A stretch of 61,846 nt of DNA from Rhodospirillaceae bacterium (GTDB lineage Bacteria; Pseudomonadota; Alphaproteobacteria; MPNO01; UBA2964), in contig PAPV01000021.1 in assembly GCA_002709075.1 (NCBI GenBank), positions 1 to 61,846 on the forward strand, written 5' to 3'. The position numbers and the translations under genes are program-made. The notes beneath the pieces were generated by a model. That model was given only the letters and a program-made list of their open reading frames with translations, made no database searches and was not told the origin of the DNA. Numbering within the stretch: position 1 is the stretch's first letter; each line of letters starts with the position of its first letter. Positions 3,244 through 55,390 of the stretch are shown in pieces.

Positions 3244-4698
3244 TTATGTTCCACAAAATGTTTGAAAGATACGTTGGTCATCTCTTGGCGGTGTTTTGTA
3301 TTCTGAGATTTCTAAAGTTTTCCGGTAAGGATTTTTTAGAACGTCAAGAAGTTTATGCAGAGACTGAAGATCACCCTGCTCTGCTGCGTCCAAAACAGTT
3401 TCAACAATATGATTTCTAGGAATAATTTCTGGATTCGTTTTTTTCATCAAATCTATACAGCGCTTATATGTTTCCGGATTGTTACTTACCCGCAATTGCC
3501 AACGGATGGTCCAATCCTCAAATTCTTTGTCATATTTTGATATATCATTTAGTTTTTTCTTATCTCTTAAATCACAAAAGGTATTCGTATAATCTGCACC
3601 GGTTCTCTGCATCCAGGTCAATAACTCCCTTATAAGTTTTTTATCGTCATTTTTTGGTTTCACCAATCCAAGTTTTGCACGCATCATAGATAGCCATCTA
3701 TCTTCATATAAGCTGGAAAAACTATTTACAGCTTTTTCAGCTAAACTTATGGCTTTCGATTTTTCAAGATCAATCAAGCTAAGCAAAGCTTCAGCTAAGC
3801 GTGCAATATTCCACTGAGCTATTTTGGGTTGATTTCCAAATGAATATCGTCCAAATTTGTCAATGGAACTAAATACAGTATTTGAGTCATATTCATCTAA
3901 GTAGGCACAAGGTCCATAATCAATTGTTTCTCCAGATAGAGCCATGTTATCCGTATTCATCACACCATGGATAAAACCAACTCTCGCCCACTCAACCATT
4001 AATTCAACCTGACGTTCAATTACAGCATATAAAAATTTCAGTGCTTTATTTTGATTTGTATCGATAGATGGATAGTGACGTTTGACTGTATAATTTAGTA
4101 AACTCTCGAGTACTTTTCTATTTTTCTGCATAGCTGCAAACACAAACGTTCCGACACGAATATGTGATGCAGCAACGCGCGTTAATATTGCGCCTTGCAA
4201 TGCAGTTTCCCTATACACATTCTCTCCGGTTGTTACCACTGCGAGAGACCTACTTGTTGGAATTCCCAGAGCATTCATAGCTTCGGAAATTATGTATTCC
4301 CGAAGCATTGGAGCTAATGCGGCTCTTCCATCTCCTCTACGTGAATAGGGAGTGGGTCCGGAACCCTTTAACTGAATATCGAATCTTTCATGTTTTTTTG
4401 TAATATGCTCCCCTAGCAAATGGGCCCTGCCATCACCAAGTATAGTTAAATGACCAAACTGATGTCCGGCATATGCTTGAGAGAGCGGCTGTGCACCTTC
4501 CAGAATTCTATTCCCTGAAAATAAAGAAGCTATTTCTTTTTCAGTTACAGAATAAAAATCGAGTCCTAATTCGTCAGAAAGATCTTGATTAAATATTACT
4601 AGCTTGGGTAAGGCTACAGGTATAGGTTCGAGGCGCGTATAAAGTGATTTTTCCAAAACTAGGTAACTGTTCTCGAAATTAAATTTATATTTATTCAT
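3244..4698 (-). CDS. selO: Protein adenylyltransferase SelO (YdiU/UPF0061)
   Basis: A 484-residue pseudokinase-fold protein close to the E. coli YdiU length (about 478). Recognisable blocks are YAGHQFGHL near residue 75, QLKGSGPTPYSRRGDGRA near 109-126, HGVMNTDNM near 244 and IDYGP near 258. These are the nucleotide- and metal-binding segments of SelO. In the characterised family, SelO binds ATP in a flipped orientation and AMPylates Ser, Thr or Tyr of other proteins, with a role in redox stress. The protein ends FCGT: the cysteine is antepenultimate (residue 482), where eukaryotic SelO carries selenocysteine. So the redox-active tail is kept in its Cys form. The start is an ATG at 4698. Confidence 0.95.
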   Translation of the reverse strand: MNKYKFNFENSYLVLEKSLYTRLEPIPVALPKLVIFNQDLSDELGLDFYSVTEKEIASLFSGNRILEGAQPLSQAYAGHQFGHLTILGDGRAHLLGEHITKKHERFDIQLKGSGPTPYSRRGDGRAALAPMLREYIISEAMNALGIPTSRSLAVVTTGENVYRETALQGAILTRVAASHIRVGTFVFAAMQKNRKVLESLLNYTVKRHYPSIDTNQNKALKFLYAVIERQVELMVEWARVGFIHGVMNTDNMALSGETIDYGPCAYLDEYDSNTVFSSIDKFGRYSFGNQPKIAQWNIARLAEALLSLIDLEKSKAISLAEKAVNSFSSLYEDRWLSMMRAKLGLVKPKNDDKKLIRELLTWMQRTGADYTNTFCDLRDKKKLNDISKYDKEFEDWTIRWQLRVSNNPETYKRCIDLMKKTNPEIIPRNHIVETVLDAAEQGDLQSLHKLLDVLKNPYRKTLEISEYKTPPRDDQRIFQTFCGT

Positions 4699-4753
4699 AA
4701 ATATCTGACTTTCTAATTTCCAAGATTATGTATTCTTTGGCATATAAACCTTC

Positions 4754-5653
4754 TTATGGTTGCTGCCGAATTATTAACTTGTTAACCGGCAAAGAAAAGC
4801 TGCAACGGTTTCCCTGTTTCTGGGAAGCAAACAGCGCCTCCAACTCTTTCAACACTCGACTATGTTCTGCAGGTCCTAAAATAAAGGATGCGTAAAAAAA
4901 ACCAGACACCTGTCGAGCTAGTAGCTCTGGAGTACCATGGAGAAAAAAAACACTCGGTTCTATACTTACAAATACTCCTTTCATACATTCATTTATTAAA
5001 TCAACAAGACTTTGAGCAGAACGAACTCTAGGGTCACCTAATTCAATTCCATCATAATTTTGAAATTCGTTCTTCGCCGCCTTGTAGATTATGTTATTGA
5101 CATCCGCATAACCATCGGCCGTCAAAGGGTCTCCATCTACAATCGCTGCAAAAATTCCATTTGGTTTCAATATCCTTCCTATTTCCTTCAAGACTGCTGG
5201 AACCTGATCCATCAGAGTTAAAGCCCAGTGACAGAGGACTACATCAATTGTTCTATCGGCTATGAAATAAAGATCTTGAGCTATCCCTTGATAAAATTCA
5301 ATTGATGACTCTTTGTTACGACTGCGAGCAAGATCAAGTTCCTCATGGCTCATATCCACCCCTATCAAATCACATTTTTGACCAGCTCGTTTAAGACACA
5401 TCTCAAGCAAAACGCCACCACCGCAAGCAAGATCCAAAACGCGCGAGTGGAGCTTGGGCTCAAAAACATCAGCAAGAACTTCATAGGTATTTCGCCCTGA
5501 TGCGTCAAAACTATGCATAGCACAACATTCCGTAAAACCCGGATATTGCTTATGAACTACTTGAAGATGATCACGAAGATCTTCATCGTTCGGACTTTCT
5601 CCAGCCTTAAGACGGTTGGTCCAACGAGACTCTATATTATGATGATATTGCAT
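4754..5653 (-). CDS. Class I SAM-dependent methyltransferase
   Basis: About 299 residues with a Rossmann methyltransferase core. Motif I is VLDLACGGGVLLEMC near residues 72-86. A later acidic strand end (LIGVDMSHEELDLA) and the post-motif strand IDVVLCHWALTLM follow the usual class I order. The frame can also open at a TTG at 5662, but ATG at 5653 is more usual. The substrate is unknown; the general fold resembles UbiE/MenG-like or natural-product methyltransferases. It is the last gene of a minus-strand run (PhyH dioxygenase, methyltransferase, MFS, this gene) and lies about 60 bases behind the MFS gene, which suggests a shared small-molecule pathway (inference). Confidence 0.8.
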   Translation of the reverse strand: MQYHHNIESRWTNRLKAGESPNDEDLRDHLQVVHKQYPGFTECCAMHSFDASGRNTYEVLADVFEPKLHSRVLDLACGGGVLLEMCLKRAGQKCDLIGVDMSHEELDLARSRNKESSIEFYQGIAQDLYFIADRTIDVVLCHWALTLMDQVPAVLKEIGRILKPNGIFAAIVDGDPLTADGYADVNNIIYKAAKNEFQNYDGIELGDPRVRSAQSLVDLINECMKGVFVSIEPSVFFLHGTPELLARQVSGFFYASFILGPAEHSRVLKELEALFASQKQGNRCSFSLPVNKLIIRQQP

Positions 5654-5719
5654 TCTTACCAAAACCTATTATTTAACGACATCGACAAAATTAATAAGAT
5701 TTCATTCCGTAACGTCTGT

Positions 5720-6949
5720 TTAATCTGTGGAGCATGTATGTAGATTTGGAGTAAATCTTATTAATGCAAACGCACAGAATATTGTACAAACCGATAATAT
5801 TAAAAATTGAGATTCTAACTTTAGACCAAAATCTATAAAAAATCCCATCAAACCAGGTGAAAGAGAAGTTGCTAATACCATTAATGTGATGCTGAGAGCC
5901 CGAATTTCCCCAAGGAAATCAGTACCATATAATTCGGCCCATATAGCTCCAAAAATCACAGTTCCCGAACCAGCAGTCATACCCATCAAAATCATGAAAA
6001 TTGGTACAATTAAAATTGAGTCACTTATAGCTAATAAACCAACTCCGATACCAAGTGGCAGCAAATAAAAACCAATTAAGCTTACCGATCCAACACGATC
6101 CGTTATCCAACCAACGATAATACCAAATGTTGTTGAGCTTAACGCATAAAACGAATAACACGCTGCAAAACTAGAGAGCGTCCAGGACTTTGTTTCTACT
6201 AGATGAACCTGATGAAATAGAATTCCGGTAATAATGAAGGGAGAAATGAAAAGCCCAGGTAAGATAATATAAAAACGCTTATCTTGAAGAACCTCAGCCC
6301 GTGTCCACGAACATTTTTTGCTTGCTTCGGGAAATACATGGTTAGCTTGCGGCAAGTTTACAATTCTTTTTCGTATATAATGGGAAAGCAATAAAATTAG
6401 TGGGCATATCGATATAGCCAAAACAGCCGAAACTCCTAGCCAAACCTCTCGCCAAGTCATAAATAACAAACAAAATGATACAATCATAGGACACAATGCC
6501 TCACCTGCTGCAAAACCAACCGACGCAGCGCTGACTGCCTTCCCTCGGTGAGAAGAATACCAACGTCCCATAGCAGTAATGGCAATATGACCCAAGTTTC
6601 CTTGACCTAATAATCGAATTCCAAATATTGCCAAACCGAGAACGATGATATCATTTGCTATAGAGATCAAAAATGTACAAATAACTAAACCTAAAAGAGT
6701 GACAATTCCTAGATATAAGAGATCATATTTGTCAGTGGATTTTCCTAACCAAACAAATATTACTGCGCTAGAGAATGTTGCACATGTATACAGCATACCA
6801 AATGATCCATGTGTAAGATCTAATTCATTCTGAATTTCTGAAGAAAAAAGCGATATAAAAAAAGTCTGCCCAACACTAGAACTAAATGTTAAGATAAAAG
6901 CAAAAAATAGAGCAGGAGCTCCATAATTTATGACTCTAGGCTCATTCAT
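5720..6949 (-). CDS. MFS transporter
   Basis: A 409-residue membrane protein with about 12 hydrophobic segments and an MFS loop motif after helix 2 (FVWLGKSTDKYD, near residue 66). The equivalent loop in the second half is GIIVGWITDRVGS (near 275). The N terminus reads as a monocarboxylate/oxalate-formate-antiporter-like MFS (VGQTFFISLFSSEIQNELDL), but the substrate cannot be fixed. It sits between two methyltransferase genes on the same strand with gaps of about 60-70 bases, so it may move the substrate or product of that cluster. The start is an ATG at 6949. Confidence 0.88.
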   Translation of the reverse strand: MNEPRVINYGAPALFFAFILTFSSSVGQTFFISLFSSEIQNELDLTHGSFGMLYTCATFSSAVIFVWLGKSTDKYDLLYLGIVTLLGLVICTFLISIANDIIVLGLAIFGIRLLGQGNLGHIAITAMGRWYSSHRGKAVSAASVGFAAGEALCPMIVSFCLLFMTWREVWLGVSAVLAISICPLILLLSHYIRKRIVNLPQANHVFPEASKKCSWTRAEVLQDKRFYIILPGLFISPFIITGILFHQVHLVETKSWTLSSFAACYSFYALSSTTFGIIVGWITDRVGSVSLIGFYLLPLGIGVGLLAISDSILIVPIFMILMGMTAGSGTVIFGAIWAELYGTDFLGEIRALSITLMVLATSLSPGLMGFFIDFGLKLESQFLILSVCTIFCAFALIRFTPNLHTCSTD

Positions 6950-7020
6950 TACTTAACTGAAAATATCTGTTTGATTTAGAGTTCAAGTGCTGTAAAAATT
7001 TTCCGTCGATATTATATGCT

Positions 7021-7848
7021 TTACAAAAATATCAACAAAACTTCTTGATTAAAACACCAAGTTTCATCCTTTAAACACTCATCAAGGTATGCACCAGTGC
7101 AAGGGTTTTCAAGCATCATTTCAAGGCTAATGGTATTATCAAATAAACACCTTTGAAGGTAACCTTCTAATAACTTTCCTGAATTCTTAGAAACAGTATT
7201 CTGATACGATATTTTTTTTACTTCAATTTTCTTTTTCAAGCCAGAAAAGATATCAATTATTTGCTCTGCAGCTGAAAAGGGCTGCGTTACAACATCTTTA
7301 AAACCGTCAAGGTAGCTTTGATAAAAACGAATATAATGCGAATTTTTAGTTGCATGAGCGATGAATCCTGCTCGTTTAGTAGCAAAAATAAAACGTTCAA
7401 TTGCTATTTCAAGTTCATTCACAGGTACTGCATAAAGTGCGTGGATAGCCCAAACAATATCAAATTCACTCGGCCTACAAACCAAACCCTGAAGAGTGCT
7501 CTCATATTCTGCATCTGCAACAAAGGGGAACGGGAGCACATCTCGTGTTTCGGAAATCGAGAATTTGGATGGGTCGAGAAGTGAATAATCAACGGGAAAA
7601 ATTCTAGCATCTGCTACGTTAGAAAACTTTGCTAGAGCCAATGGGAATTTTCCTGATCCGCAAGCGACATCCAGAATTTTTAAATTTTTTTTGCCAACCA
7701 TTTCCTGTTGTTCTTCTATCCAGTTTTTCCAGTCAACTGCTTCTGCAAGATATTGATAATCAACCGACGCGAGGGTATAAAATTTTTCCATTTCATCTCT
7801 ACCCTCTTCACTCCAGTGCTGACAGCTTCTCTGAAATGTATCATGCAT
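7021..7848 (-). CDS. SAM-dependent methyltransferase-like protein
   Basis: A 275-residue protein with a clear motif I (ILDVACGSGKFPLALAKF, about residues 58-75) and a motif-IV-like strand, FDIVWAIHALYAVPV (near 134). The C-terminal third does not resemble a family I can name. The start is an ATG at 7848, 16 bases after the PhyH stop, so the two genes are probably translated from one message. It shares only the fold with the methyltransferase at 4754 and is not a recent duplicate by eye. Substrate unknown. Confidence 0.75.
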   Translation of the reverse strand: MHDTFQRSCQHWSEEGRDEMEKFYTLASVDYQYLAEAVDWKNWIEEQQEMVGKKNLKILDVACGSGKFPLALAKFSNVADARIFPVDYSLLDPSKFSISETRDVLPFPFVADAEYESTLQGLVCRPSEFDIVWAIHALYAVPVNELEIAIERFIFATKRAGFIAHATKNSHYIRFYQSYLDGFKDVVTQPFSAAEQIIDIFSGLKKKIEVKKISYQNTVSKNSGKLLEGYLQRCLFDNTISLEMMLENPCTGAYLDECLKDETWCFNQEVLLIFL

Positions 7849-7864
7849 TCAATTATGCCTCCGT

Positions 7865-8860
7865 TTACCAACAAATTGGATTGTATTCAGTTGCTGCAGG
7901 ATCACCTGGAGCAGTATTGGGGATAAATTTTTGCCAATCGCCAGACACCATTGTAGGTTGCTTTAATACTCTTGCGCCATCGGCATAATATGTGGTCGCT
8001 AAAACAATCCGACTTTGATTGGTATTATTAGGGCCAGCAGTATGAAAACTTCTATTGTGATGAAAGCTAACTTCCCCAATAGCGAAAGCACTTTCTTCAA
8101 TAGACACCTGATTTTCTAAAAATATTTGGCTTATTTGGCGATCGTAACTAGTGTCAAATTTATTAAATTTTATACTCTTTACAAGCTCAAATACATTTAG
8201 CGGTTTTGCAAAGGTCAAGGGACCCATTTCAAGCGGAATAGGCTGCGCGGGAATCCATGCTGTTATCACATCATCCGTAGCCAATGGAAAATGATGATCA
8301 TCGTAATGCCATGGAGTTCGTCCACACCCCGGTTCTTTTGACAGTATGTTATCATGATAAAGACGTACATTTCTGACATTTAATAGTTCTGCGCAAATTT
8401 TTGCTATACGTTTACTTAAAACAAAAGATCTAATGAGTGGGTTATTAAGCCATACCATTTCGAGACTCAAAAAACGGTCCTGCTCTCCGCCGTCAAGCTT
8501 TGTGTTATAGAACTCCGCCAACAGTTTGAGCGCTTCATTACGCAAACGAATAATCGCTCCAGTGGAAAAAATATTTTTAAGTTTTATAAACCCGTCCCGA
8601 CGAAATTGTTCTAAATTTTGACGATTAAGAAGAAATGGTTTTTTTATTTCTTCAAATATTTCATCGTCAGTTGGCAATTCAACCGATGGAAACTCAGGCC
8701 TGACACACAGTTTAGCACGTTGCGTGCCGTTGTTTTCAGCAAGTGTAACATACCAATCCCACCAAGCCTGATTATCCTGCTCCCAAGGTTGATTTATATC
8801 AGACTGTAAAGCATTTTTACCCGTCAAAACCTCGGCGCGTTTTCTATGTTTCTGTTTCAC
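7865..8860 (-). CDS. Phytanoyl-CoA dioxygenase (PhyH) family protein
   Basis: A 331-residue non-haem Fe(II)/2-oxoglutarate dioxygenase. The iron-binding HxD is in WHYDDHHFPL (about residues 200-209), the distal histidine in RSFHTAGPN (about 277-285), and the 2OG-binding arginine follows in NQSR. A long N-terminal extension of about 90 residues precedes the fold, with FRRDGFIKL as its first conserved piece. The start is GTG at 8860, supported by GGAAAG five bases upstream. PhyH enzymes hydroxylate or halogenate small molecules; with two methyltransferases and an MFS carrier downstream, a tailoring role is plausible (inference). It is the first gene of the run. Confidence 0.85.
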   Translation of the reverse strand: MKQKHRKRAEVLTGKNALQSDINQPWEQDNQAWWDWYVTLAENNGTQRAKLCVRPEFPSVELPTDDEIFEEIKKPFLLNRQNLEQFRRDGFIKLKNIFSTGAIIRLRNEALKLLAEFYNTKLDGGEQDRFLSLEMVWLNNPLIRSFVLSKRIAKICAELLNVRNVRLYHDNILSKEPGCGRTPWHYDDHHFPLATDDVITAWIPAQPIPLEMGPLTFAKPLNVFELVKSIKFNKFDTSYDRQISQIFLENQVSIEESAFAIGEVSFHHNRSFHTAGPNNTNQSRIVLATTYYADGARVLKQPTMVSGDWQKFIPNTAPGDPAATEYNPICW

Positions 8861-9158
8861 TAAAACTTTCCATTTGCGATAATTTTATGAAAAATAAAGC
8901 CTTATTGTTAACCTATCTTACCAGATACTTATAAATTTTATCAGGTTTAGAATGCTTTGCTTATATAATGTGTACTAAAGGGGTATTTTTAAAACACTAA
9001 ACTTTCAATCAAGACAAATTTTTTCAAGCCGATCCGAAAAAATACCGAAGTAAAGTTCCTTAATTTGATTATTTAGCGGATTTAGCCAAGTGAAGCTGCT
9101 TTTCTTATATCAGTGTTGCTTAAAAAAATCTAAAAATAATATCTCTTACACACTTAAG

Positions 9159-40666: not shown

Positions 40667-41170
40667 TTACTGTATTTGATTTACATTTTGATTGCGCAAA
40701 CGCTCAGCCGCATCTAAAGCAGCAGCTACTATACCTTGGTATCCAGTACATCGACATAAATTGCCACTGATAGCAATACGCACTTCTTCCTCGGTGGGGT
40801 CGGGATTATCTTTCAAAAATTCTAGTAATGTTGTGAGCATTCCGGGAGTACAAAATCCACATTGAAGCCCGTGATTATCTCGAAATGCTTCCTGCAACGG
40901 ATGCAACTCATCTTCTGAAGGTGCAATTCCCTCAATAGTTAAAATTTCTTGCCCGTCAGCTTGCACGGCTAGTAACAAACAAGAACGTGCACTTTCACCG
41001 TTCAATAAAATTGTACAAGCTCCACAAACACCGTGTTCGCAACCAAGATGTGTCCCCGTCAAACCCAACTGCTGGCGGATAAAATCAGCTAAATGGAAAC
41101 GGACTTCAACTTCTTCTTGATAAGTCTTTCCATTAATAGTGACTGAAATATTTCTGGTTTCTCCCATCAA
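40667..41170 (-). CDS. 2Fe-2S small subunit of a xanthine-oxidase-family molybdenum hydroxylase (CoxS-like)
   Basis: A 167-residue protein with both [2Fe-2S] domains. The plant-ferredoxin type has CEHGVCGACTILLNG and a later Cys in SARSCLLLA (about residues 44-66). The all-helical second cluster has CGFCTPGM (about 103) and GNLCRCTGYQGI (about 135). It passes electrons from the Mo site to FAD in CO dehydrogenase or xanthine-dehydrogenase-like enzymes. It overlaps the FAD subunit gene by four bases. No Mo-binding large subunit is encoded in the window. Confidence 0.93.
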   Translation of the reverse strand: MMGETRNISVTINGKTYQEEVEVRFHLADFIRQQLGLTGTHLGCEHGVCGACTILLNGESARSCLLLAVQADGQEILTIEGIAPSEDELHPLQEAFRDNHGLQCGFCTPGMLTTLLEFLKDNPDPTEEEVRIAISGNLCRCTGYQGIVAAALDAAERLRNQNVNQIQ

Positions 41171-42039
41171 TTATCTCCTCCGAGCGCACGATCGTAGGCT
41201 TTGACAAGAGCACGCCGAGACATAACAGCTGCTAAGTGCTGTCTGTATTCGGTAGACGCATAAACATCCCCCATCGCTTCTATCCCGCGACAAACTTCAC
41301 ACGCTTCTTTGAATACGTCTTCAGAACCAATTTGTCCGGATATAGCTTCTTCGACTTCAGTAATTCTCATGGGAGCTGCCCCAACTCCGCCCACGGTAAT
41401 TGCAGACCGCACTATCCTCCCTTCCGCATCTAATTCTAACAATGCACCAGAGGAAACAATTGCAAAATCGCCATGCCTTCGAGCAAATTCAACGAATGCA
41501 AATCCATGCCCTTTTTGCCAACAAGGTACCCGTACAGAGGTGACAATCTCATCCATTTCAACCGAAGGTGTCATATAACCGGCAGGAAATTCCGCAAATG
41601 GGATTTCGCGCTCACCATTTGGTCCCTTTACTCTTACAACAGCATCAGAAATTGCACATACCGCTGGCATTTCAGCTGCAGGGTCCAAATGGGCTAGTGA
41701 CCCACCTAAAGTACCGCGGTTACGAGTTTGCCGATGCCCAACCCACTGCAGGGCCTCATGCATTATTGGACAATTTTCTTTCACAATGTCAGAAAATTCT
41801 AAATCTCTTTGCCTAGTCATGGCGCCTATTTCTAACGCATCAGTTTCCTTTTTTATATAAGAAAGATTTTCGATTTTATTTAAGTCGACAATGTGATCTG
41901 GCATCACATACCGCATATTTAACATCGGCATTAATGACTGACCACCAGCTAGAACCTTCGTATTTTCAAGAGTTGAAAGAAGTGACACCGCATCGTCAAC
42001 TGATCGAGGGTCATGGTAGGAAAATGGCGGTGGCTTCAT
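41167..42039 (-). CDS. FAD-binding medium subunit of a xanthine-oxidase-family hydroxylase (CoxM-like)
   Basis: A 290-residue FAD subunit. The flavin-binding segments are KVLAGGQSLMPMLNMR (about residues 29-44) and RNRGTLGGSLAHLDPAAEMP (about 106-125), the usual AGGxSLxP and TxGGxxxxxxPxxxxP motifs. The C-terminal CO_deh_flav_C domain follows from about 175. It is translated just ahead of the 2Fe-2S subunit (ATGA overlap). The absence of the large subunit suggests a partner elsewhere. Confidence 0.93.
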   Translation of the reverse strand: MKPPPFSYHDPRSVDDAVSLLSTLENTKVLAGGQSLMPMLNMRYVMPDHIVDLNKIENLSYIKKETDALEIGAMTRQRDLEFSDIVKENCPIMHEALQWVGHRQTRNRGTLGGSLAHLDPAAEMPAVCAISDAVVRVKGPNGEREIPFAEFPAGYMTPSVEMDEIVTSVRVPCWQKGHGFAFVEFARRHGDFAIVSSGALLELDAEGRIVRSAITVGGVGAAPMRITEVEEAISGQIGSEDVFKEACEVCRGIEAMGDVYASTEYRQHLAAVMSRRALVKAYDRALGGDN

Positions 42040-43009: not shown

Positions 43010-43594
43010 ATGACTGAAGGAAGCACAGAAACTGGGATAACGGATGCCGGGCCAGGACATAATCAACCGGAAGTTATTTGGGACAGGTGGGTAAAAAAAC
43101 GTACTTTTGTGCGCGCACTTGAAGGAACATACGGGGAAATGAAACAGGGTCTTTATGATCAGAAACGTGTTTACAGCATCCACGACTGGAAATGGAGAGG
43201 TGGACCCCAATTTTATGATAAAGCAGTTATAAATCCTCAAAATCTAGATATTGCACAATCCATCGAAACTCACCTTGGGGCATTTGCCCCAGGAGGATAT
43301 GGTCAAAAACATGGTCACATGAATAGTGCGGTGTTTTTTGTTCTAAGGGGAGAGGGTTACGACGTTCATGATGGCGAACGTATTGATGCTGAGGCCGGAG
43401 ACTGTATGATTGTTGAAAATGGCTGCGTTCATCAACATTTTAACAAAAGTGCAGATGAAGAATTTGTGGTGTTAGTTATGAAAGCCAAACCACTATTTTT
43501 GTTTATGCACATGGTTTTTCAAAAAAATGTTAAGATGCCACCGAAAGAGATTGCACCCGGACAAGAAGACTACATGCCACCTGGCGATTATTAG
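43010..43594 (+). CDS. Cupin-domain protein 1 (Glu ligand replaced)
   Basis: A 194-residue single-domain cupin. Motif 1 is GGYGQKHGHMNSAVFFV (about residues 95-111) and motif 2 is GDCMIVENGCVHQHFN (about 129-144). The Glu normally four residues after the HxH is Ala, as seen when it is aligned with cupin 2 (HGHMNSA versus HRHLAEE), leaving a possible three-His metal site like that of thiol or gentisate dioxygenases. It has a good SD (GAGGAAG). It is the first gene of a plus-strand array that includes a second cupin 37 bases away. Confidence 0.82.
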   Translation: MTEGSTETGITDAGPGHNQPEVIWDRWVKKRTFVRALEGTYGEMKQGLYDQKRVYSIHDWKWRGGPQFYDKAVINPQNLDIAQSIETHLGAFAPGGYGQKHGHMNSAVFFVLRGEGYDVHDGERIDAEAGDCMIVENGCVHQHFNKSADEEFVVLVMKAKPLFLFMHMVFQKNVKMPPKEIAPGQEDYMPPGDY

Positions 43595-43631
43595 GCATCC
43601 GTGCCGGTTTTTTTAAATTAGGGAGAGTAAG

Positions 43632-44222
43632 TTGGATGAACGCGACGTTGCGGCAGCAGGAGAAAAAGTCTGCACTTTCTACAAGGACAACCTAGCTGAG
43701 ACAGCCGCCTTTGTTGAGGATTATTATAACAATAGATTAAAAGTCGTAAAATCGACTGATATGCCATTAGAAAATTCCCCTCATGGTATACTTAAACATA
43801 TGATAAATGAAAAAATGAATACAGTTGAAAACTGTGTTGATATTTACATGCATTTATTTCCTCCAGGATGGGCTTCAGGAAAACATCGTCATTTGGCTGA
43901 GGAAGTTTTCTTTGTTGCTGAAGGAAGTGGATATGATCTCCATTGGGATGTAAACTTCGAAGTGGACGTAAAATTTTCTTGGACATGGGAAAAAGAACCG
44001 AAAAAATTTGAGTGGAACAGAGGGGATTTTGTATACATCCCTCCCTATGTTGCGCATAAGCATTTTAATGCAGATAAGGGTAACCCAGCAAGATTGGTGG
44101 TTTGTCATAACAGAATTTTAAAAGCTATGGGGGCGGCATGGTACGAACAATTAGAACCATACGAAGATTACAACCCTGAAGAAGACCCCCGTGATATACT
44201 TTCTAAATACGGAATGCGTTAA
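43632..44222 (+). CDS. Cupin-domain protein 2
   Basis: A 196-residue single-domain cupin with the full ligand set. HRHLAEEVFFVAEGSG (about residues 80-95) gives two His and Glu, and YVAHKHFN (about 138-145) gives the third His. An insertion of about 20 residues, rich in Trp and Lys, separates the two motifs. It shares the H-x-HFN ending of motif 2 with cupin 1, so the two may be distant paralogues that work as a pair. The start is TTG at 43632 with GGGAGAG upstream; the nearby ATG is out of frame. Confidence 0.8.
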   Translation: MDERDVAAAGEKVCTFYKDNLAETAAFVEDYYNNRLKVVKSTDMPLENSPHGILKHMINEKMNTVENCVDIYMHLFPPGWASGKHRHLAEEVFFVAEGSGYDLHWDVNFEVDVKFSWTWEKEPKKFEWNRGDFVYIPPYVAHKHFNADKGNPARLVVCHNRILKAMGAAWYEQLEPYEDYNPEEDPRDILSKYGMR

Positions 44223-44322
44223 ACATATGATTTTTTTTTCCGCACAGGGGTAAAAGTGAGATTTGGGTCTTGTGTGCTCTCCCTAATCCCCGCTTTTTAT
44301 TTTTAATTGTTTAGGTTTCCTA

Positions 44323-45402
44323 ATGACACTGATTTTATCAAACGAGGAGATCACCGATCTTCTTGAAATGAAAGAAGTAATAAACGAGTTGGAAGAAGTT
44401 TATCGTGACCTAGATATTGGTAAAGCAACGACACGACGTCGATCTGACAGCTTAGTTCCGGCTCTACACGACGGAAACGAGGCAATATATGGCCTAAAGA
44501 GCATGGATGGTATTTCCCCAAGGCAGGGATTCAGTGCTGTAAGACTCAACTCTGATATAATAACTTGGCCAATTATTGAAGGTAATTTACGTAGGGTAAA
44601 AATTCCCGCAGCACCTAACAATAGGTGGGTAGGTCTTATAATTTTGTTCAGCACTCACAATGGTGAACCTCTTGCAATTATGCCTGATGGTGTGATCCAA
44701 AGAATGCGGGTAGGCGCAACAAACGGTCTTGGTATCAAATATATGGCCCGTGAAAGCGCAAAAACTATCGGTATACTAGGCTCTGGATGGCAGGCAGGAA
44801 CTCAACTGTTAGCAGCTTGTAATGTCCGCGATATTGAAATGATAAAATGCTTTAGCCCCAATTCCGCGAATAGGCTAAATTTTACCCAAGAAATGACAGA
44901 AATTCTTGGTGTAGAAATGATGGTGGTTAACTCTGCAGAGGAAGCTGTATCTGGCGTTGACATAGTTCTCTGTGCAACAAACTCGATTGAAAAAGTCTAC
45001 ATCGAGAGCTGGCTTCGCCCCGGCATTCACATAAGTTCTATAAAAATGCCAGAAATTGAAGAAGAGGTATTGAAAAAGTGCCACCGAGTTTGCCTTCATT
45101 ATGGTCAACAACGTCCTGATACGGTAATTGCAAAAGGTCTCGTGCCCCCAGATCGGCGCCTTGGTAAAGGTTGGGAAGCTAATAGAACATTTGACTATGG
45201 TTCATGCCCTCTTTTATCCCAAATGATTTCTGGAAAAGTTAAAGGGCGAAAATCTGATGATGAAATAACATGTTTTATCAACGACATGGGCATCGGTCTT
45301 CAATTCGCAGTTACAGCAGGGGTAGCTTACAAGAAGGCTTTGGATGCTGGGGTTGGTAAAAAATTACCTACAGACTGGTTTACTGAAAACGTGCATCCGT
45401 AG
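44323..45402 (+). CDS. Ornithine cyclodeaminase/mu-crystallin family enzyme
   Basis: A 359-residue NAD(P)-dependent enzyme. The dinucleotide-binding motif is IGILGSGWQAGTQL (about residues 149-162); upstream, TTRRRSDSLVPA and QRMRVGATNGLGIKYMARE are family blocks. Relatives include ornithine cyclodeaminase, alanine dehydrogenase of archaeal type and ketimine reductases, and the substrate cannot be chosen from sequence. It follows cupin 2 by 100 bases and is followed by two half-permeases at 13 and then 1 base, which implies a pathway for uptake or export of a small amino-acid-like compound (inference). Confidence 0.85.
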   Translation: MTLILSNEEITDLLEMKEVINELEEVYRDLDIGKATTRRRSDSLVPALHDGNEAIYGLKSMDGISPRQGFSAVRLNSDIITWPIIEGNLRRVKIPAAPNNRWVGLIILFSTHNGEPLAIMPDGVIQRMRVGATNGLGIKYMARESAKTIGILGSGWQAGTQLLAACNVRDIEMIKCFSPNSANRLNFTQEMTEILGVEMMVVNSAEEAVSGVDIVLCATNSIEKVYIESWLRPGIHISSIKMPEIEEEVLKKCHRVCLHYGQQRPDTVIAKGLVPPDRRLGKGWEANRTFDYGSCPLLSQMISGKVKGRKSDDEITCFINDMGIGLQFAVTAGVAYKKALDAGVGKKLPTDWFTENVHP

Positions 45403-45415
45403 AGAAACCGACCTA

Positions 45416-46000
45416 ATGATACCTAATGAAAAAGAAAGTAATAAAAAGAATCCTACAAGCGGACCAATAACAAGAAAAATTTTTGATTTTTCACTTCTAA
45501 TTTTTGCTGCTCTCTCAATTTTAGCTGGTTTGGCTGTCTGGAATCTCAAGGGCCCACAGGCTTTTGATAGAGCCATGACTGATGCATGGGAATTATTTAA
45601 ATTTGTGATGCCACGAGTTGGTGCTGCCGTTCTAATTGCTGCCTTTTTACAATTACTCTTACCTCGCGAATTGATTGCTAAATTGATTGGTGAGGATGCT
45701 GGAATAAAAAGTGTTTTAATAGCTTCAGTTGCAGGAGCTATAACACCTGGCGGACCACTAACTTCTTTCCCGATTTTAGTTGCATTATACGTTTCTGGAG
45801 CGAATAAAGGTGCTTTAGTTGCATACCTTTCTGCTTGGGCAATGATCGGATTTCAACGAATTCTAGTCTGGGAACTACCATTGATGGGGGAAGAATTTAC
45901 TCTTACGCGAGTTACTGCAAGTTTTCTTTTGCCGATAATATGCGGAAGTATTGCGCTCTACCTTCCTTTAAATTTAAATATTTCTAAGCAAAATAAATAA
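45416..46000 (+). CDS. Half-size permease A (YraQ/ArsP_1-like)
   Basis: A 194-residue membrane protein with about four to five helices. The core reads FVMPRVGAAVLIAAFLQLLL, then AGAITPGGPLTSFPILVALY and WAMIGFQRILVWELPLMG. The Gly/Pro-rich helix break resembles half of a YraQ-type (UPF0718/ArsP_1) permease, but without its cysteines. It starts at an ATG at 45416, 13 bases after the cyclodeaminase stop; the longer frame to 45344 would overlap that gene. Its neighbour at 46002 is a homologue, so the two probably form a heterodimer. Confidence 0.7.
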   Translation: MIPNEKESNKKNPTSGPITRKIFDFSLLIFAALSILAGLAVWNLKGPQAFDRAMTDAWELFKFVMPRVGAAVLIAAFLQLLLPRELIAKLIGEDAGIKSVLIASVAGAITPGGPLTSFPILVALYVSGANKGALVAYLSAWAMIGFQRILVWELPLMGEEFTLTRVTASFLLPIICGSIALYLPLNLNISKQNK

Positions 46001-46001
46001 A

Positions 46002-46526
46002 ATGGGAGGAGAAAATAATCCTACTGTAGCTATATTAATGTGGGTTGGTGTTTTTTTGCTTTTGTGGCTGGCTTGGCGTAAACATGACGGCACTTTAAAA
46101 AAGGGTACTAGCGTCGGGTGGGGCTATTTTTTAATGATGACCCCAAGATTGTGTTGTGCTCTTACCATTGCGGTATTCGCCGCAGAGTTGCTTCCCGGAG
46201 AAACCATAAGTAAATGGCTGGGTTCTGAATCAGGATTTCAGGGAATAATTATTGCGTCTTTTGCTGGACTTCTAATTCCTGCAGGTGGAGTGATTGCTTT
46301 CCCGATGGCACTAGCAATGTATAAAATTGGCGTTGGAATACCACAGTTGGTAGCATTTCTAACAACTTGGGAAATTTTTGCTATTCATCGTATCTTAGCA
46401 TGGGAAATTCCCTTTCTTGGGTATAGATTTGTGACGTTACGAATTGCATCTTCATTTTTTTTACCGCCGCTTGCAGGGGTATTTGCGGCCTTGATTGTTT
46501 TTTATCTTGACGATTGGATGAGTTGA
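46002..46526 (+). CDS. Half-size permease B (paralogue of permease A)
   Basis: A 174-residue membrane protein homologous to the preceding one. Aligned segments are FLMMTPRLCCALTIAVFAAELLPG, SFAGLLIPAGGVIAFPMALAM and FAIHRILAWEIPFLGYRF, against PRVGAAVLIAAF, AGAITPGGPLTSFP and FQRILVWELPLMG in permease A. The shared pattern P-G/A-G-G-x3-FP and RILxWExPxxG identifies one family. The ATG at 46002 follows the upstream stop by one base. A strong SD-like GGAGGAG lies just inside the gene, and an ATG at 46038 is a second start candidate. Confidence 0.7.
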   Translation: MGGENNPTVAILMWVGVFLLLWLAWRKHDGTLKKGTSVGWGYFLMMTPRLCCALTIAVFAAELLPGETISKWLGSESGFQGIIIASFAGLLIPAGGVIAFPMALAMYKIGVGIPQLVAFLTTWEIFAIHRILAWEIPFLGYRFVTLRIASSFFLPPLAGVFAALIVFYLDDWMS

Positions 46527-46616
46527 CAAATGATTATAAAACCAATTGAGATAACTTTAAAAGTTTACAGGCAATTGCATAAAAAACTATAGACGAAATC
46601 TAATCGAGGAAAAAAT

Positions 46617-47822
46617 ATGACATCTGTAATGGGTAATATTGGACATGAATTTCGAATACTCGGACTGGTAAGCACAGGACACTTTATGAGCCACTATTCC
46701 CAGCTAATTTTACCACCGTTATTTGTCCTGATGGCTCCTTATTATGGGGTTGGCTTTGCTGCGATGGGATTTATAATGGCGTTACTCAATATATCTGGTG
46801 CGATTGCGCAAATCCCAGTCGGGTTCATGGTGGATCGTATAGGCGCAAAATGGATACTAATTGTTGGGCTATTTACAAAAACATTCGCTCTTAGTGCAAT
46901 GGCTTTTGTGGACTCTTTTTGGATTTTACCGCTTTTAGCGATCATCGCTGGTTTAGGCCACAGTGTGTTTCATCCAACCGATTATGCTATAATCATGTCC
47001 ACTGTCCATGAGAAACGCATCGGGCGTGCATTCAGCATACACACCGCTGCAGGAAATGTAGGAACTTTATTAGCACCTTTAGTGGCGACTATATTTTTAT
47101 CAACGGCGTGGGGCTGGAAAGGTGCTATTTTGTCGGTGGCATTTATCGGATGCACTTCTGGTATTGCTATATTATTACAAGCAGGCAGCTTGCAAGACCA
47201 TGTGGGGAGAAAAAAAGATAAAAATAAAGATCCACTTTCTATAGTGGAAGGAATTAATTTATTGATTAAGCCCGAGATGCTCATTCTTTATTTATTCTTT
47301 TGTATAACAGCAATGGCAACCGTAGGGCTGAATACAATGATTCCGGCAACATTATATAAAGCGCATGGTATTGACCCGGCTTCCGCAGCAACAGTGCTCT
47401 CATTTTATGCTGGAGGTAGCTTATTTGGTATCATTGCAGGAGGTTGGTTAGCTGATAAATTTCAAAAACATAATTTGCTGGCTGCATTAGCATTTACAAT
47501 TGGAGCAAGTCTTACAATTATCGCCGGGTATTTTACTTTGCCATATTTTTGTTATTTGCTTTTCTTCTTCATAGTTGGATTGGTGCTTGGTTTAGTTCGC
47601 CCTGCCCGTGATATGATGGTAAAAAATATTACGCCAGACGGTCAGGCCGGAAAAACGTTCGGCTTTATGTCAAATGGACATTTTATTGGAGCTGCATTGA
47701 GCCCGGTGTTAATGGGTCTGATCCTTGATGCAGGGTATGCTAATTCGGTATTTTATCTAGCCGCGGGACTGATGTCATTGTCAATCCTCACACTTCTTAA
47801 TCCGCCAAAATTACGAATATGA
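46617..47822 (+). CDS. MFS transporter
   Basis: A 401-residue carrier with about 12 helices. Helix 2-3 loop: PVGFMVDRIGAKWILIVG (about residues 67-84). Helix 4-5: GHSVFHPTDYAIIMSTVHEKRIGRAFS, with the His-Pro pair seen in fosmidomycin-resistance-like MFS proteins. It also resembles the carrier at 20884 in this region. The ATG at 46617 has GAGGA upstream. It ends one base from the cobT stop, with which it converges. It is the last gene of the cupin array. Confidence 0.85.
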   Translation: MTSVMGNIGHEFRILGLVSTGHFMSHYSQLILPPLFVLMAPYYGVGFAAMGFIMALLNISGAIAQIPVGFMVDRIGAKWILIVGLFTKTFALSAMAFVDSFWILPLLAIIAGLGHSVFHPTDYAIIMSTVHEKRIGRAFSIHTAAGNVGTLLAPLVATIFLSTAWGWKGAILSVAFIGCTSGIAILLQAGSLQDHVGRKKDKNKDPLSIVEGINLLIKPEMLILYLFFCITAMATVGLNTMIPATLYKAHGIDPASAATVLSFYAGGSLFGIIAGGWLADKFQKHNLLAALAFTIGASLTIIAGYFTLPYFCYLLFFFIVGLVLGLVRPARDMMVKNITPDGQAGKTFGFMSNGHFIGAALSPVLMGLILDAGYANSVFYLAAGLMSLSILTLLNPPKLRI

Positions 47823-47823
47823 T

Positions 47824-49680
47824 TTACGCAGCTTTGTTCTTTCCGCGGCGAATAAATTTTGAAAGCCACTCATCTTCTTCTTCGAAAAGCTCAGCAAGTT
47901 TCTCCATCATTGTGCCGCCAAGTTGTTCTGCATCCATTATTGTTACAGCTCGACGGTAGTAGCGGGTAACATCATGACCAATTCCAATAGCAATGATTTC
48001 TGCAGGTGATCGAGTTTCAATGTATTCAATTACAGAACGAAGGTGATTCTCTAGGAAGTTTCCCTGATTAACAGATAGGGTCGAGTCGTCCACCGGAGCG
48101 CCATCAGATATAACCATCAAAATCTGACGTTGTTCAGGTCTTATCATTAAACGATTATGCGCCCACAAAAGTGCCTCACCATCAATATTTTCTTTCAGTA
48201 GACCCTCTCTTAACATTAACCCTAAACTTTTACGCGCTCGCCGGTATGGTGAATCGGCACTTTTATAAACAATATGTCTGAGATCATTAAGACGACCAGG
48301 AGAACTTGTTTTACCTTCAGCTAGCCATTTCTCCCGCGACTGACCACCCTTCCATGCCTTCGTGGTAAACCCTAATATTTCAACCTTTACGCCACAGCGC
48401 TCAAGCGTGCGCGCCAATATGTCAGCGCTCATTGCTGCCACAGATATTGGACGGCCTCTCATTGAACCCGAATTATCTATTAATAGAGTAACAACGGTGT
48501 CTCTAAATTCGGTTTCATGTTCCATTTTATATGAGAGGGCTTGCATCGGGTTTACAACAACTCTTGCTAGCCGTCCAGCATCTAGTAGTCCTTCCTCGAG
48601 ATCAAATTCCCAAGAACGGGACTGTTTTGCCATTAAGCGACGTTGAAGACGATTAGCTAATCTACCAATAATTCCCTGATGAATGCTTAATTGCTGATCT
48701 AAATGGTGTCTTAGACGCAACAGTTCCTCATCCTCACAAAGATCGGCAGCTTCAATTTCTTCATCAAATTCCTGAGAGAAAATTTTATAATTGATACGCT
48801 TACCAGTCGCGCCGTTGGCATCACGACGCTGTTTTTCGCTATCAGCCTGGTCAGAATCATCCTCTCCAGCTACTTGATCATCTTCGATTTGCTCTGCACC
48901 ATCTTCTTCGTCTTCCTCACTTTCATCCCCATCTACGCTCTCTGCGTTTTCCTCTGCCTCACTCTCATCATCCGAATCATCATTCTCATCTTCATCGGGA
49001 GATTCTTCACTAATTTCCTCATCACCTTCTTCCTCATCTTCCATGTCATAAAGATCAAGATGAACCATTATTTTATCAAGCGCTTTCGCAAATTCCTCTT
49101 GATTCGATAGTTTTTCCTGCAAATCGTCAAAATCGTCTCCAATACGATTTTCAAGCCAATCCCTCCAATACCCTAAGGCATTTTTTGCAGAAGCTGGTAA
49201 TTCTTCCCCCATTAGAATTTCACGGCTTAATAATCCCACTGCATCCGAAAGTTCGATATCTGCCTTGTCGCAGACCCTCGAAAAGCCTTTCTCTTTGCAT
49301 TTTTCTTGAAATGCCGCGCGCAAATTTTTTGAACAGCCTCTGAATTCGCTCGAGCCAAGCGTCTCTACTCGTACCTGTTCGAACGAGTCAAATACAGCTC
49401 GGGCTTCTTGCCCAGCCGGCGCAAAACTCCGATGGACTTTATCATCATGAAATCTTAATCGTAAAGCCATTGCATCTGCTGCACCTCTTATCTGTGCCAC
49501 ATCATCTTTAGTCATCAGACGCGGAGGTGCGGGAAGGCGTGCAGTATTACCAACCATTCTAGCTTCTGAACCAAATGCAACCTGAAGTTCTTCGTTTTCT
49601 GAAATAGCGCGCATTGCTGCAGCAGTTATGCGGCGAAATTCTTCCGAGGGGTTTTCATCACTAGCCATGTATAATGCCAA
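47824..49680 (-). CDS. cobT: Aerobic cobaltochelatase subunit CobT
   Basis: A 618-residue CobT, close to the family length. The N-terminal region (1-205) has [20 protein letters not shown] very acidic, low-complexity segment follows at about residues 210-285. A C-terminal von Willebrand factor A domain carries the metal-ion site ([21 protein letters not shown], about 402-422). With CobS it forms the AAA+/VWA chaperone that drives CobN to insert cobalt in aerobic B12 synthesis. CobN is not in the window. It lies 33 bases after cobS. Confidence 0.96.
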
Positions 49681-49713
49681 ACCTATTGTTTTTTTATATT
49701 TTGCCTGAACAAT

Positions 49714-50712
49714 TTAACCAGCTTCTGCCTGCGATGTTTGGTATTCAGGTAACTCATCCCCAAAACAACGTTGATAATATTCAGCAACAGTTGTGCGCTC
49801 AAGTTCATCACATTTATTAATAAATGTCATACGGTATGCAGTGGCGACATCATTAAAAATCTGCGCATTCTCTGCCCATGTGATGACCGTTCTGGGGGAC
49901 ATCACCGTTGAAATATCACCAGCCATAAAGCCAGACCGCGATAGATCAGCCACCCGCACCATACTAGAAATGGTCTTCTTTCCTTCTTCATTATCAAATT
50001 CTGGGGTTTTTGCCAAAACGATCTGGCATTCGACTTCATGTGGCAAATAGTTTAACGTAGTAACTAGGTTCCAGCGATCCATTTGAGCTTGATTTATTTG
50101 CTGCGTGCCGTGATAGAGCCCGGTAGTATCTCCGAGTCCAACTGTATTAGCTGTAGAGAATAGGCGAAAACCTCTGTGTGTGTGGATTACTCTATTTTGA
50201 TCCAACAGAGTCATCTTACCATCGGACTCAAGAATCCGTTGAATAACAAACATAACATCAGGACGCCCGGCATCATATTCATCAAATACAAGTGCAACTG
50301 GGTGCTGAATTGCCCAAGGCAGTATTCCTTCACGGAACTCCGTAATCTGCTGACCATCCTTGAGTACAATTGCATCCTTTCCAATCAGATCAATTCTACT
50401 TATATGGCTATCCAAATTAACTCGTATACATGGCCAGTTTAGTCGTGAGGCGACCTGTTCTATGTGCGTCGACTTACCGGTGCCGTGATAACCCTGCACC
50501 ATCAACCGGCGATTGTATGAAAATGCCGCTAAAATTGCCAAAGTAGTTTCTTTATCAAAAAAATATGCGGCATCCTCTTCAGGAACATACTCGGTCTTCT
50601 TTTTAAAAGCCGGCACCTTCATATCGATGTCTATACCGAATGTCTTACGTACATCAACTTCCGTATCCGGAAGATCTATGCCCAGAGTATTAATACCGTC
50701 AGAACCAGACAA
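49714..50712 (-). CDS. cobS: Aerobic cobaltochelatase subunit CobS
   Basis: A 332-residue AAA+ ATPase. Walker A is [15 protein letters not shown] (about residues 72-86), Walker B is [14 protein letters not shown] (about 138-151), and the sensor region [14 protein letters not shown] follows. The N-terminal extension has [20 protein letters not shown]. It forms a ring with CobT to power cobalt insertion into hydrogenobyrinate a,c-diamide. An ATG at 50712 has GGAG upstream. No cobalamin riboswitch is apparent in the 183-base upstream gap. Confidence 0.96.
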
Positions 50713-53794: not shown

Positions 53795-53872
53795 TACTTA
53801 GTCGAAAAAAGTGTGTATTTGGAACTAACTCCTCGTTATTATAATAATTCAAAATCTTCGAGAGAAAAAACT

Positions 53873-55390
53873 ATGAATGTCAAACACCGCAACACACAAA
53901 ACCAACCCATTCAAGATTTGCGACAATGGCTAGATGCAGTTGAAAAGATCGGAGAACTAGTAAAGGTTTCCAAACCCGTCAGTCGGGACCAAGAGATGAG
54001 TGCAATTGGTTACCTTCTTGCTAAGCAGGAAACTTCTCCCACTGTTCTATTTGAAACAATTAAAGATTTTGACAACAGCACTGTAAATGCTCGTTTATTG
54101 TGGAACCTTGCAGGGCCGAGCCTCAAAAGAATAGCTATTACTATGGGAGAGGACCCAGATATTCCCACAGTGGAACTTATAAAAAATGTAAAATCGAAAT
54201 TGCTTAAGCGGGTTCCCCCCAAAGAAATCAATGCAGAAGAGGCAGCTATATTTGAAAATTCACTTTATGACGATGATATAAATCTTGATAAGTTTCCAAT
54301 ACCCAAACATTGGCCTCTTGATGGTGGTCGTTACCCTGGGACTGCTGACTGCGTAATAACGCGCGATCCTGAAACCGGTTACATAAATGTTGGCACATAC
54401 CGAATGATGCAACAGGGAAAAAAACATGCCGGGCTATACCTTTCCCCTGGAAAGGACGCCCGCTTGCATATGGAAAGAGCTTGGGAAAATGGATCTTCAT
54501 TAGAGGTTGCTGCTGCGTGGGGTGTAGACCCAATCTTTATGCTAGTTGGATCTCAAGGATTTCCAAAAAATGTCTCAGAATACGAATTTATCGGAGGTAT
54601 AAGAGGTCAAGCGGTTGAAGTTGTTCGAGGTAAACGAACAAGCTTGTTGTTACCTGCCAACGCAGAAATAGTTGTAGAGGGGACTATTCATCCTAAAGCA
54701 ATGAAAAACGAAGGCCCATTCGGAGAGTTCACAGGGTATTATGGTAAACCCGAAGGTGAAGCTCCATTAGTTGAATTAACAGCATTACATTTCCGAGACC
54801 AACCAATCATGACTAATGCGCTCATGGCAGATTATCCATCTTGCGAACAATCAGGATTTTTTGCGATTGTTCGGTCTGCACGAATATGGAATGACTTTGA
54901 TAAACTTGGTATCGCAGGAGTGAAGTCAATTTATTGTCACCCTGCAGCAGCCGGTGGCTGGGGAATGACGTGTGTTAGCATAGAACAGCGTTATGCTGGG
55001 CATGCAGCACAAGTATTAGCGTTAGCAGCTCAAGTTCCGGGGGGGGCCTATTATACAAAATGGATAATTGTAGTCGATGAGGACATAGATCCGTCGGACA
55101 TGGACCAAGTAATATGGGCAATGTCCACTAGAAGCAATCCATCTGATGATGTTGAAATACTGAATAATACCTGGTCCACTCAGCTTGATCCCGCGCAATA
55201 TCCCGCAGAGAAAAGGCCATATGGTTCAAAGTGCCTGATAAATGCGTGTAAAAATCATCGACATATCAATGAATATTCAAAAAGGACAATGCTATCTAAG
55301 AGGATTTACAACTCTGTTGTGTCCGATTGGGAAAACCTTGGCCTCCCAGGCGTTCCTCCAACAATAGAAAATTTTGAAAAAGAAGTCTAA
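53873..55390 (+). CDS. UbiD-family decarboxylase
   Basis: A 505-residue prenylated-FMN-dependent (de)carboxylase of the UbiD family. Typical blocks are INVGTYRMMQQGKKHAGLYL (about residues 174-193), AWGVDPIFMLVGSQGFP near 219 and GPFGEFTGYYG (about 282-292), with the Glu-Arg-Glu catalytic set expected in these regions. Family members act on 4-hydroxy-3-polyprenylbenzoate or aromatic acids. The ATG at 53873 has GAGAG upstream; the frame extends to 53813 without support. UbiX, the maker of prFMN, is not in the window. Confidence 0.88.
   Translation: MNVKHRNTQNQPIQDLRQWLDAVEKIGELVKVSKPVSRDQEMSAIGYLLAKQETSPTVLFETIKDFDNSTVNARLLWNLAGPSLKRIAITMGEDPDIPTVELIKNVKSKLLKRVPPKEINAEEAAIFENSLYDDDINLDKFPIPKHWPLDGGRYPGTADCVITRDPETGYINVGTYRMMQQGKKHAGLYLSPGKDARLHMERAWENGSSLEVAAAWGVDPIFMLVGSQGFPKNVSEYEFIGGIRGQAVEVVRGKRTSLLLPANAEIVVEGTIHPKAMKNEGPFGEFTGYYGKPEGEAPLVELTALHFRDQPIMTNALMADYPSCEQSGFFAIVRSARIWNDFDKLGIAGVKSIYCHPAAAGGWGMTCVSIEQRYAGHAAQVLALAAQVPGGAYYTKWIIVVDEDIDPSDMDQVIWAMSTRSNPSDDVEILNNTWSTQLDPAQYPAEKRPYGSKCLINACKNHRHINEYSKRTMLSKRIYNSVVSDWENLGLPGVPPTIENFEKEV

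Follow-up and report, generated by a model that had tools for sequence, protein, structure and literature searches.

The window, the 61,846-nucleotide stretch of DNA analysed here, contains six plus-strand open reading frames in a row (Table 1), which encode two cupins (cup1 and cup2), a member of the OCD/mu-crystallin family (OCD), two half-size permeases (a and b) and an MFS transporter. The genes were found at the positions and on the strand given in the original prediction, and family scans (Cupin_2 twice, OCD_Mu_crystall, ArsP_1 and MFS_1) agreed with the names it had used. Read from its longest ORF, permease a would begin at 45344, inside the OCD gene; the ATG at 45416 avoids the overlap, and with this start the predicted gaps of 37, 100, 13, 1 and 90 bases are correct. 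Promoter and terminator scans of the operon gave no clear excess over shuffles.

Table 1. Genes of the operon and other features of the window.
Feature	Position	Strand	Family match
cup1 (cupin)	43010..43594	+	Pfam Cupin_2 9.2e-13
cup2 (cupin, TTG start)	43632..44222	+	Pfam Cupin_2 1e-9
OCD/mu-crystallin-family NAD(P)-dependent oxidoreductase or cyclodeaminase	44323..45402	+	PF02423 1.2e-35
Half-size permease a (ArsP-like)	45416..46000	+	PF03773 44.3 bits
Half-size permease b (ArsP-like)	46002..46526	+	PF03773 23.3 bits
MFS transporter	46617..47822	+	PF07690 1.9e-55
Molybdenum hydroxylase small and FAD subunits	40667-42039	-	
CobT- and CobS-like cobaltochelatase subunits	47824-50712	-	
UbiD	53813-55390		

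Distribution of the operon and of the cup1-cup2 pair

The assembly that contains the window (G000) is 2.52 Mb in size and 99.9% complete, and holds a single copy of the operon. Orthologs of cup2 were present in 10 of the 13 genomes of the window's family, the window's own included, and the nine others were 71-85% identical to the cup2 of the window. The loci of these nine relatives preserve the order cup1, cup2, OCD, permease a, permease b, MFS, with the exception of one (L015), in which the permease pair is reduced to a remnant. Within the family, the flanks of the operon (xdhM/xdhS/hpnM and cobT/cobS/tauE) are largely as syntenic as the operon itself, and since they are about as conserved, family synteny alone indicates inheritance as a block rather than joint function. 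The family also carries, at other loci, tandem cup1-cup1' paralogs without cup2.

Downstream of the operon lie subunits resembling CobT and CobS, as read from their sequences. Of the family loci that extend to this point, nearly all have such genes after the operon; neither a functional connection to the operon nor an association in other lineages was found for them. The molybdenum hydroxylase subunits of the window have no large subunit adjacent, while a relative (L089) has a 778-residue large-subunit-like ORF (4144-6480) beside its copies of them. The genome as a whole encodes 22 molybdenum-hydroxylase large subunits (MoCoBD_2) together with 15 Rieske domains. These are high numbers for 2.5 Mb and suggest that the organism specialises on dissolved matter that is oxidised or aromatic. 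Contig 8 of the same assembly contains a decayed cup1 paralog with seven in-frame stops (L126:9144-9590, minus strand), which adjoins an MFS gene (7780-9021) and an apparent TauD-type dioxygenase (6850-7692).

A scan of 84,980 species genomes, one genome per species, revealed at least 459 places encoding a cup1 relative, and the best 80 were fetched. Among these 80 best loci, ORF clustering placed cup2 immediately after cup1 in 63, and tblastn added three further cases (66/80). In the loci fetched, the pair is part of catabolic gene clusters of Proteobacteria from the sea and from fresh water (Rhodobacterales, Litoricola and the window's Rhodospirillales-like lineage), and no close cup1 was found in plasmid records. 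Two further families of the window's order retain cup1-cup2 alone, with OCD nearby in some, and two loci (L084 and L125) have the order cup1, cup2, TctABC-type transporter genes, OCD. The pairing is broken mainly by Rhizobiales-type loci with cup1 alone and by the cup1-cup1' tandems of the family, which suggests that cup2 is not always needed. Thus the six-gene array that had been predicted is a conserved unit, with its gene order kept, within the window's family, but is divisible elsewhere: the constant core is cup1-cup2, while OCD, a carboxylate or MFS transporter and the permease pair are interchangeable parts that join it by lineage.

The two cupin proteins

Three histidines that form a predicted metal site in cup1 (H101, H103 and H141) were present in 92 of 92 sequences. 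The position of the glutamate is taken by Ala107, which is alanine in all 92, as in the gentisate-type ring-cleaving dioxygenases. The cup2 of the window has the full 3-His/1-Glu ligand set (H85, H87, E91 and H142), shared by 25 of the other sequences surveyed (26/67); the set is incomplete in the other 41, the first histidine being lost in 31 of the 67 and all three in 10. Strict conservation in the cupins is seen at the metal ligands and in a long C-terminal motif. The two proteins are homologous (26% identity, profile probability 99.3%) and have the same closest solved relative, gentisate 1,2-dioxygenase 3bu7, with profile E values of 1.9e-14 for cup1 and 2.2e-12 for cup2; cup1 did not reach the cut-off of the gentisate dioxygenase model TIGR02272 (27.9 bits against 442.1). 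A fused bicupin gene with 19 members occurs in the same clusters, and in most of these the first domain is most similar to cup2 and the second, which retains the HxH...H site, to cup1. The original prediction had described two single-domain cupins; the ligand survey, their homology and the fused bicupin favour parts of one enzyme over two independent ones. We consider it very probable, from these comparisons of sequence, that cup1 and cup2 make up a split, heteromeric bicupin. The simplest reading is that cup1 would be the catalytic half and cup2 its partner subunit.

Several characterized enzymes can be set beside this predicted bicupin, and its ligand pattern has parallels in two of them. 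The gentisate dioxygenase of Silicibacter (Ruegeria) pomeroyi, the enzyme of structure 3bu7, is a bicupin with two ferrous centres; hydroquinone dioxygenases are built from two unlike cupin subunits and bind the metal in one of them (PMC10306065). Gentisate dioxygenase is a single polypeptide, while cup1 and cup2 are separate proteins of about 195 residues. The heterotetrameric hydroquinone 1,2-dioxygenases (HapCD/PnpCD) likewise combine two different cupins, and a single working site is suggested in many cup1-cup2 lineages, although the window's cup2 retains the full ligand set. The subunits of hydroquinone 1,2-dioxygenase, at 19 and 38 kDa, differ in size from cup1 and cup2, and no HapCD/PnpCD chain was named among the cupin profile matches (A2/A3 to E 1; A5 to E 0.5). 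The small monocupin 5-nitrosalicylate 1,2-dioxygenase (8ch4) is also a ring-cleaver, and its three histidine ligands (96, 98 and 136; PMC10306065) have the same spacing as those of cup1, but it is a homotetramer of a single subunit type and its profile match to cup1 was weak (E 0.018).

Structure models of both proteins gave cupin barrels, with a pLDDT of 88 for cup2 and of 72 for cup1, in which most of the N-terminal 40 residues fell below 50. Cupins of many unrelated functions tied in fold searches with the two models, so that the models do not discriminate between functions; the absence of hydroquinone dioxygenase from the fold-search matches listed is likewise uninformative.

OCD, the MFS protein and the half-size permeases

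The OCD protein scored 123.5 bits against PF02423, over the cut-off of 24, and reached no NCBIfam equivalog for ornithine cyclodeaminase or another named enzyme of the family (best 147.8 bits against 417). Its closest solved relative is the delta1-pyrroline-2-carboxylate reductase 6t3e, a protein of the same family matched over the full length (2.6e-38). Outside the window's family OCD is often accompanied by the TctABC carboxylate transporter, and the OCD proteins encoded downstream of cup1-cup2-TctABC in the two loci mentioned above are 51-55% identical to that of the window. It is probable that OCD acts in the same pathway as the cupins. Enzymes of the OCD family reduce or deaminate imino or keto-amino acids, and this known chemistry makes an amino- or N-heteroaromatic substrate attractive. 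The MFS protein (188.7 bits against PF07690, cut-off 33.4) is encoded by a gene that is mostly specific to the window's family, and related MFS genes (30-34% identity) adjoin the family's cup1 paralogs at other loci.

The two permeases were predicted to be mutually homologous halves, and they do share 35% identity over 144 residues. Permease a exceeds the PF03773 cut-off of 32.3 bits and matches profile positions 180-291, in the C-terminal half, while permease b falls below it and matches positions 17-129, in the N-terminal half. Each covers about 113 of the 294 positions and neither is a full-length two-repeat protein, so the profile match to the ArsP/SaoE/SO_0444-type permeases is here divided between two half-size proteins. 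The halves form separate clades in the tree (support 100/99). Each clade has members from the window's family, from Rhodobacterales/Stappiaceae and from the Litoricola group, and since both are represented in the same lineages the duplication appears to be older than these, with both halves kept since.

In 31 of the 80 loci, those of Gammaproteobacteria and Rhodobacterales with their differing gene orders included, this permease family was represented no more than 10 kb from cup1, and the pair itself occurs within that distance in other orientations in Rhodobacterales, Stappiaceae and the gammaproteobacterial Litoricola group. Roseivivax jejudonensis carries cup1, cup2, OCD and the permease pair at a single locus, and Roseibium marinum has the cupins together with the permeases. 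Among 337 sampled genomes of the class, 21 had the pair, seven had cup1 and six had both; the pair was thus present in 6 of 7 cup1 genomes and in 15 of 330 others (p 1.9e-7, a value that ignores relatedness). Leaving out the window's family, it was present in 3 of 3 cup1 genomes (p 1.3e-4, again ignoring relatedness), all of them of one family, and only in one of the three (G694) were cup1 and the pair close together. The 15 genomes with the pair but no cup1 show it in varied settings, which suggests a carrier of general use, frequently recruited by the cupin system. The chances that the pair is functionally linked to the cupin system appear to us about even.

In Rhodobacterales the pair stands beside an apparent NicO-like metal transporter, as read from its sequence, and a His-rich protein. 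Two small proteins without a Pfam family (L118:15134-15685 and L118:13809-14252, minus strand), the second of which has a His-rich tail, are conserved there in the interval that separates a LigXa-type Rieske oxygenase from the permease pair.

Possible function of the operon

No pathway could be named from the gene set when the locus was first described, and none with this set was found in open-licence papers either, although an earlier description elsewhere is possible. The neighbours of the cup1-cup2 pair in other lineages include LigXa-type Rieske oxygenases, two-component ring-hydroxylating dioxygenases, LigAB-type extradiol dioxygenases, a gentisate-dioxygenase-like bicupin, a UbiD decarboxylase and dienelactone hydrolase, together with a TPP-dependent enzyme, TctABC transporters and IclR or LysR regulators; a relative of 2-keto-4-pentenoate hydratase and an Asp/Glu-racemase-family protein lie near loci with cup1 only. 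The IclR, LysR, TauD and HyuAB assignments come from reading the sequences, without a family search. Inside the window's operon itself no gene for ring hydroxylation or for a cleavage product was found. Taken together, the neighbours elsewhere point to aromatic or heteroaromatic acids as substrates, and the recurrence of the two-half enzyme in aromatic-degradation clusters suggests that it probably belongs to an unstudied route that opens and uses aromatic molecules.

Several candidates were set aside. The UbiD of the window is 35% identical to one that neighbours the permease pair in a different family, and no UbiD was found near the operon in the window's family. An iron-containing dehydrogenase in a cup1-paralog cluster (L056:16033-17097) was not confirmed as maleylacetate reductase by family search. 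Breakdown of homarine, picolinate, gentisate, hydroquinone or mycosporine was considered as a candidate pathway, and none of these was supported by any test. EutA-type reactivating factors also stand near the cupin clusters (L118:18303-19988, plus strand, PF06277 1.3e-114; similar in L086, L092, L108, L109 and L117), and ethanolamine ammonia-lyase genes were not noticed alongside them.

The operon is a real and conserved unit, probably catabolic, built around an apparently undescribed split bicupin. We put the probability at roughly 0.5 that it encodes uptake of a small aromatic or heteroaromatic acid and its oxidative degradation by way of this bicupin, OCD and the transporters. What has been observed is which genes are present and in what order, their homology, the conservation of the ligands and the recurrence of the unit; in the scheme that we propose, the single complex, the identity of the metal, ring cleavage, the direction of transport and the role of OCD are all predictions. 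The MFS protein would import the substrate, replacing TctABC, which fills that role in other lineages. The cup1 protein, holding a 3-His Fe(II)-type site, would open the ring with O2 in the manner of the gentisate and salicylate dioxygenases, with cup2 as the partner barrel completing the oligomer and a second metal possible in the window's family; we lean slightly towards such O2-dependent aromatic ring cleavage by the two proteins. If the opened ring yields an imine or a keto-amino compound, OCD might then reduce this with NAD(P)H, or deaminate it, and the half-size permeases may form a heteromeric ArsP-like carrier of the product, the substrate or a metal. That all of these parts hold at once, with cup1-cup2 a new and widespread split-bicupin ring-cleaver, OCD reducing its imine or keto-amino product and the permeases a heteromeric ArsP-like carrier in an undescribed pathway for an aromatic or N-heteroaromatic acid, is a tentative reading, somewhat less likely than not.

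Cupins of this size also include lyases and isomerases, and the cup1-cup2 pair might instead be a non-oxidative metal enzyme (hydratase, lyase or isomerase) that acts on a later aromatic intermediate, the ring being opened by other dioxygenases. Several clusters do have a second ring-opening candidate next to cup1, either a LigAB-type dioxygenase or the gentisate-dioxygenase-like bicupin, and the fold searches fail to separate dioxygenases from lyases and isomerases. There is also a precedent in LumY, which is annotated as a cupin and is a dienedioate hydratase of riboflavin catabolism (PMC12746152). However, O2 chemistry is favoured by the invariant 3-His site of cup1, which lacks a glutamate, and by gentisate dioxygenase being its best profile match, and other clusters show no obvious further candidate for ring opening within 10 kb; we regard a non-oxidative role as rather unlikely.

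Less likely still is that the operon joins two or three modules with no common role (the cupin pair with OCD, a permease pair for a metal or toxic compound, and an MFS carrier), which came to lie together by chance in one family and were inherited there as a block. The equally syntenic flanks would fit this, as would the permease pairs without cup1 and their NicO-like and His-rich neighbours in Rhodobacterales, but the nearness of the permease family to cup1 across many loci, its co-occurrence with cup1 outside the family (within one family) and the recurrence of related MFS genes beside the family's cup1 paralogs argue otherwise. That the cupins are non-catalytic regulatory or binding proteins, as weak Auxin_BP and AraC_binding profile matches might hint, is highly improbable given their full metal ligand sets, the strict conservation of these ligands and of the long C-terminal motif, and the absence of any DNA-binding domain in the family scan.

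If the predicted split bicupin does open aromatic rings, the pair would put a name to a step, so far unassigned, by which dissolved aromatic matter is turned over. Its separate and fused forms, grading from two metal sites to one, would then provide a natural series for the loss of a site in bicupins.
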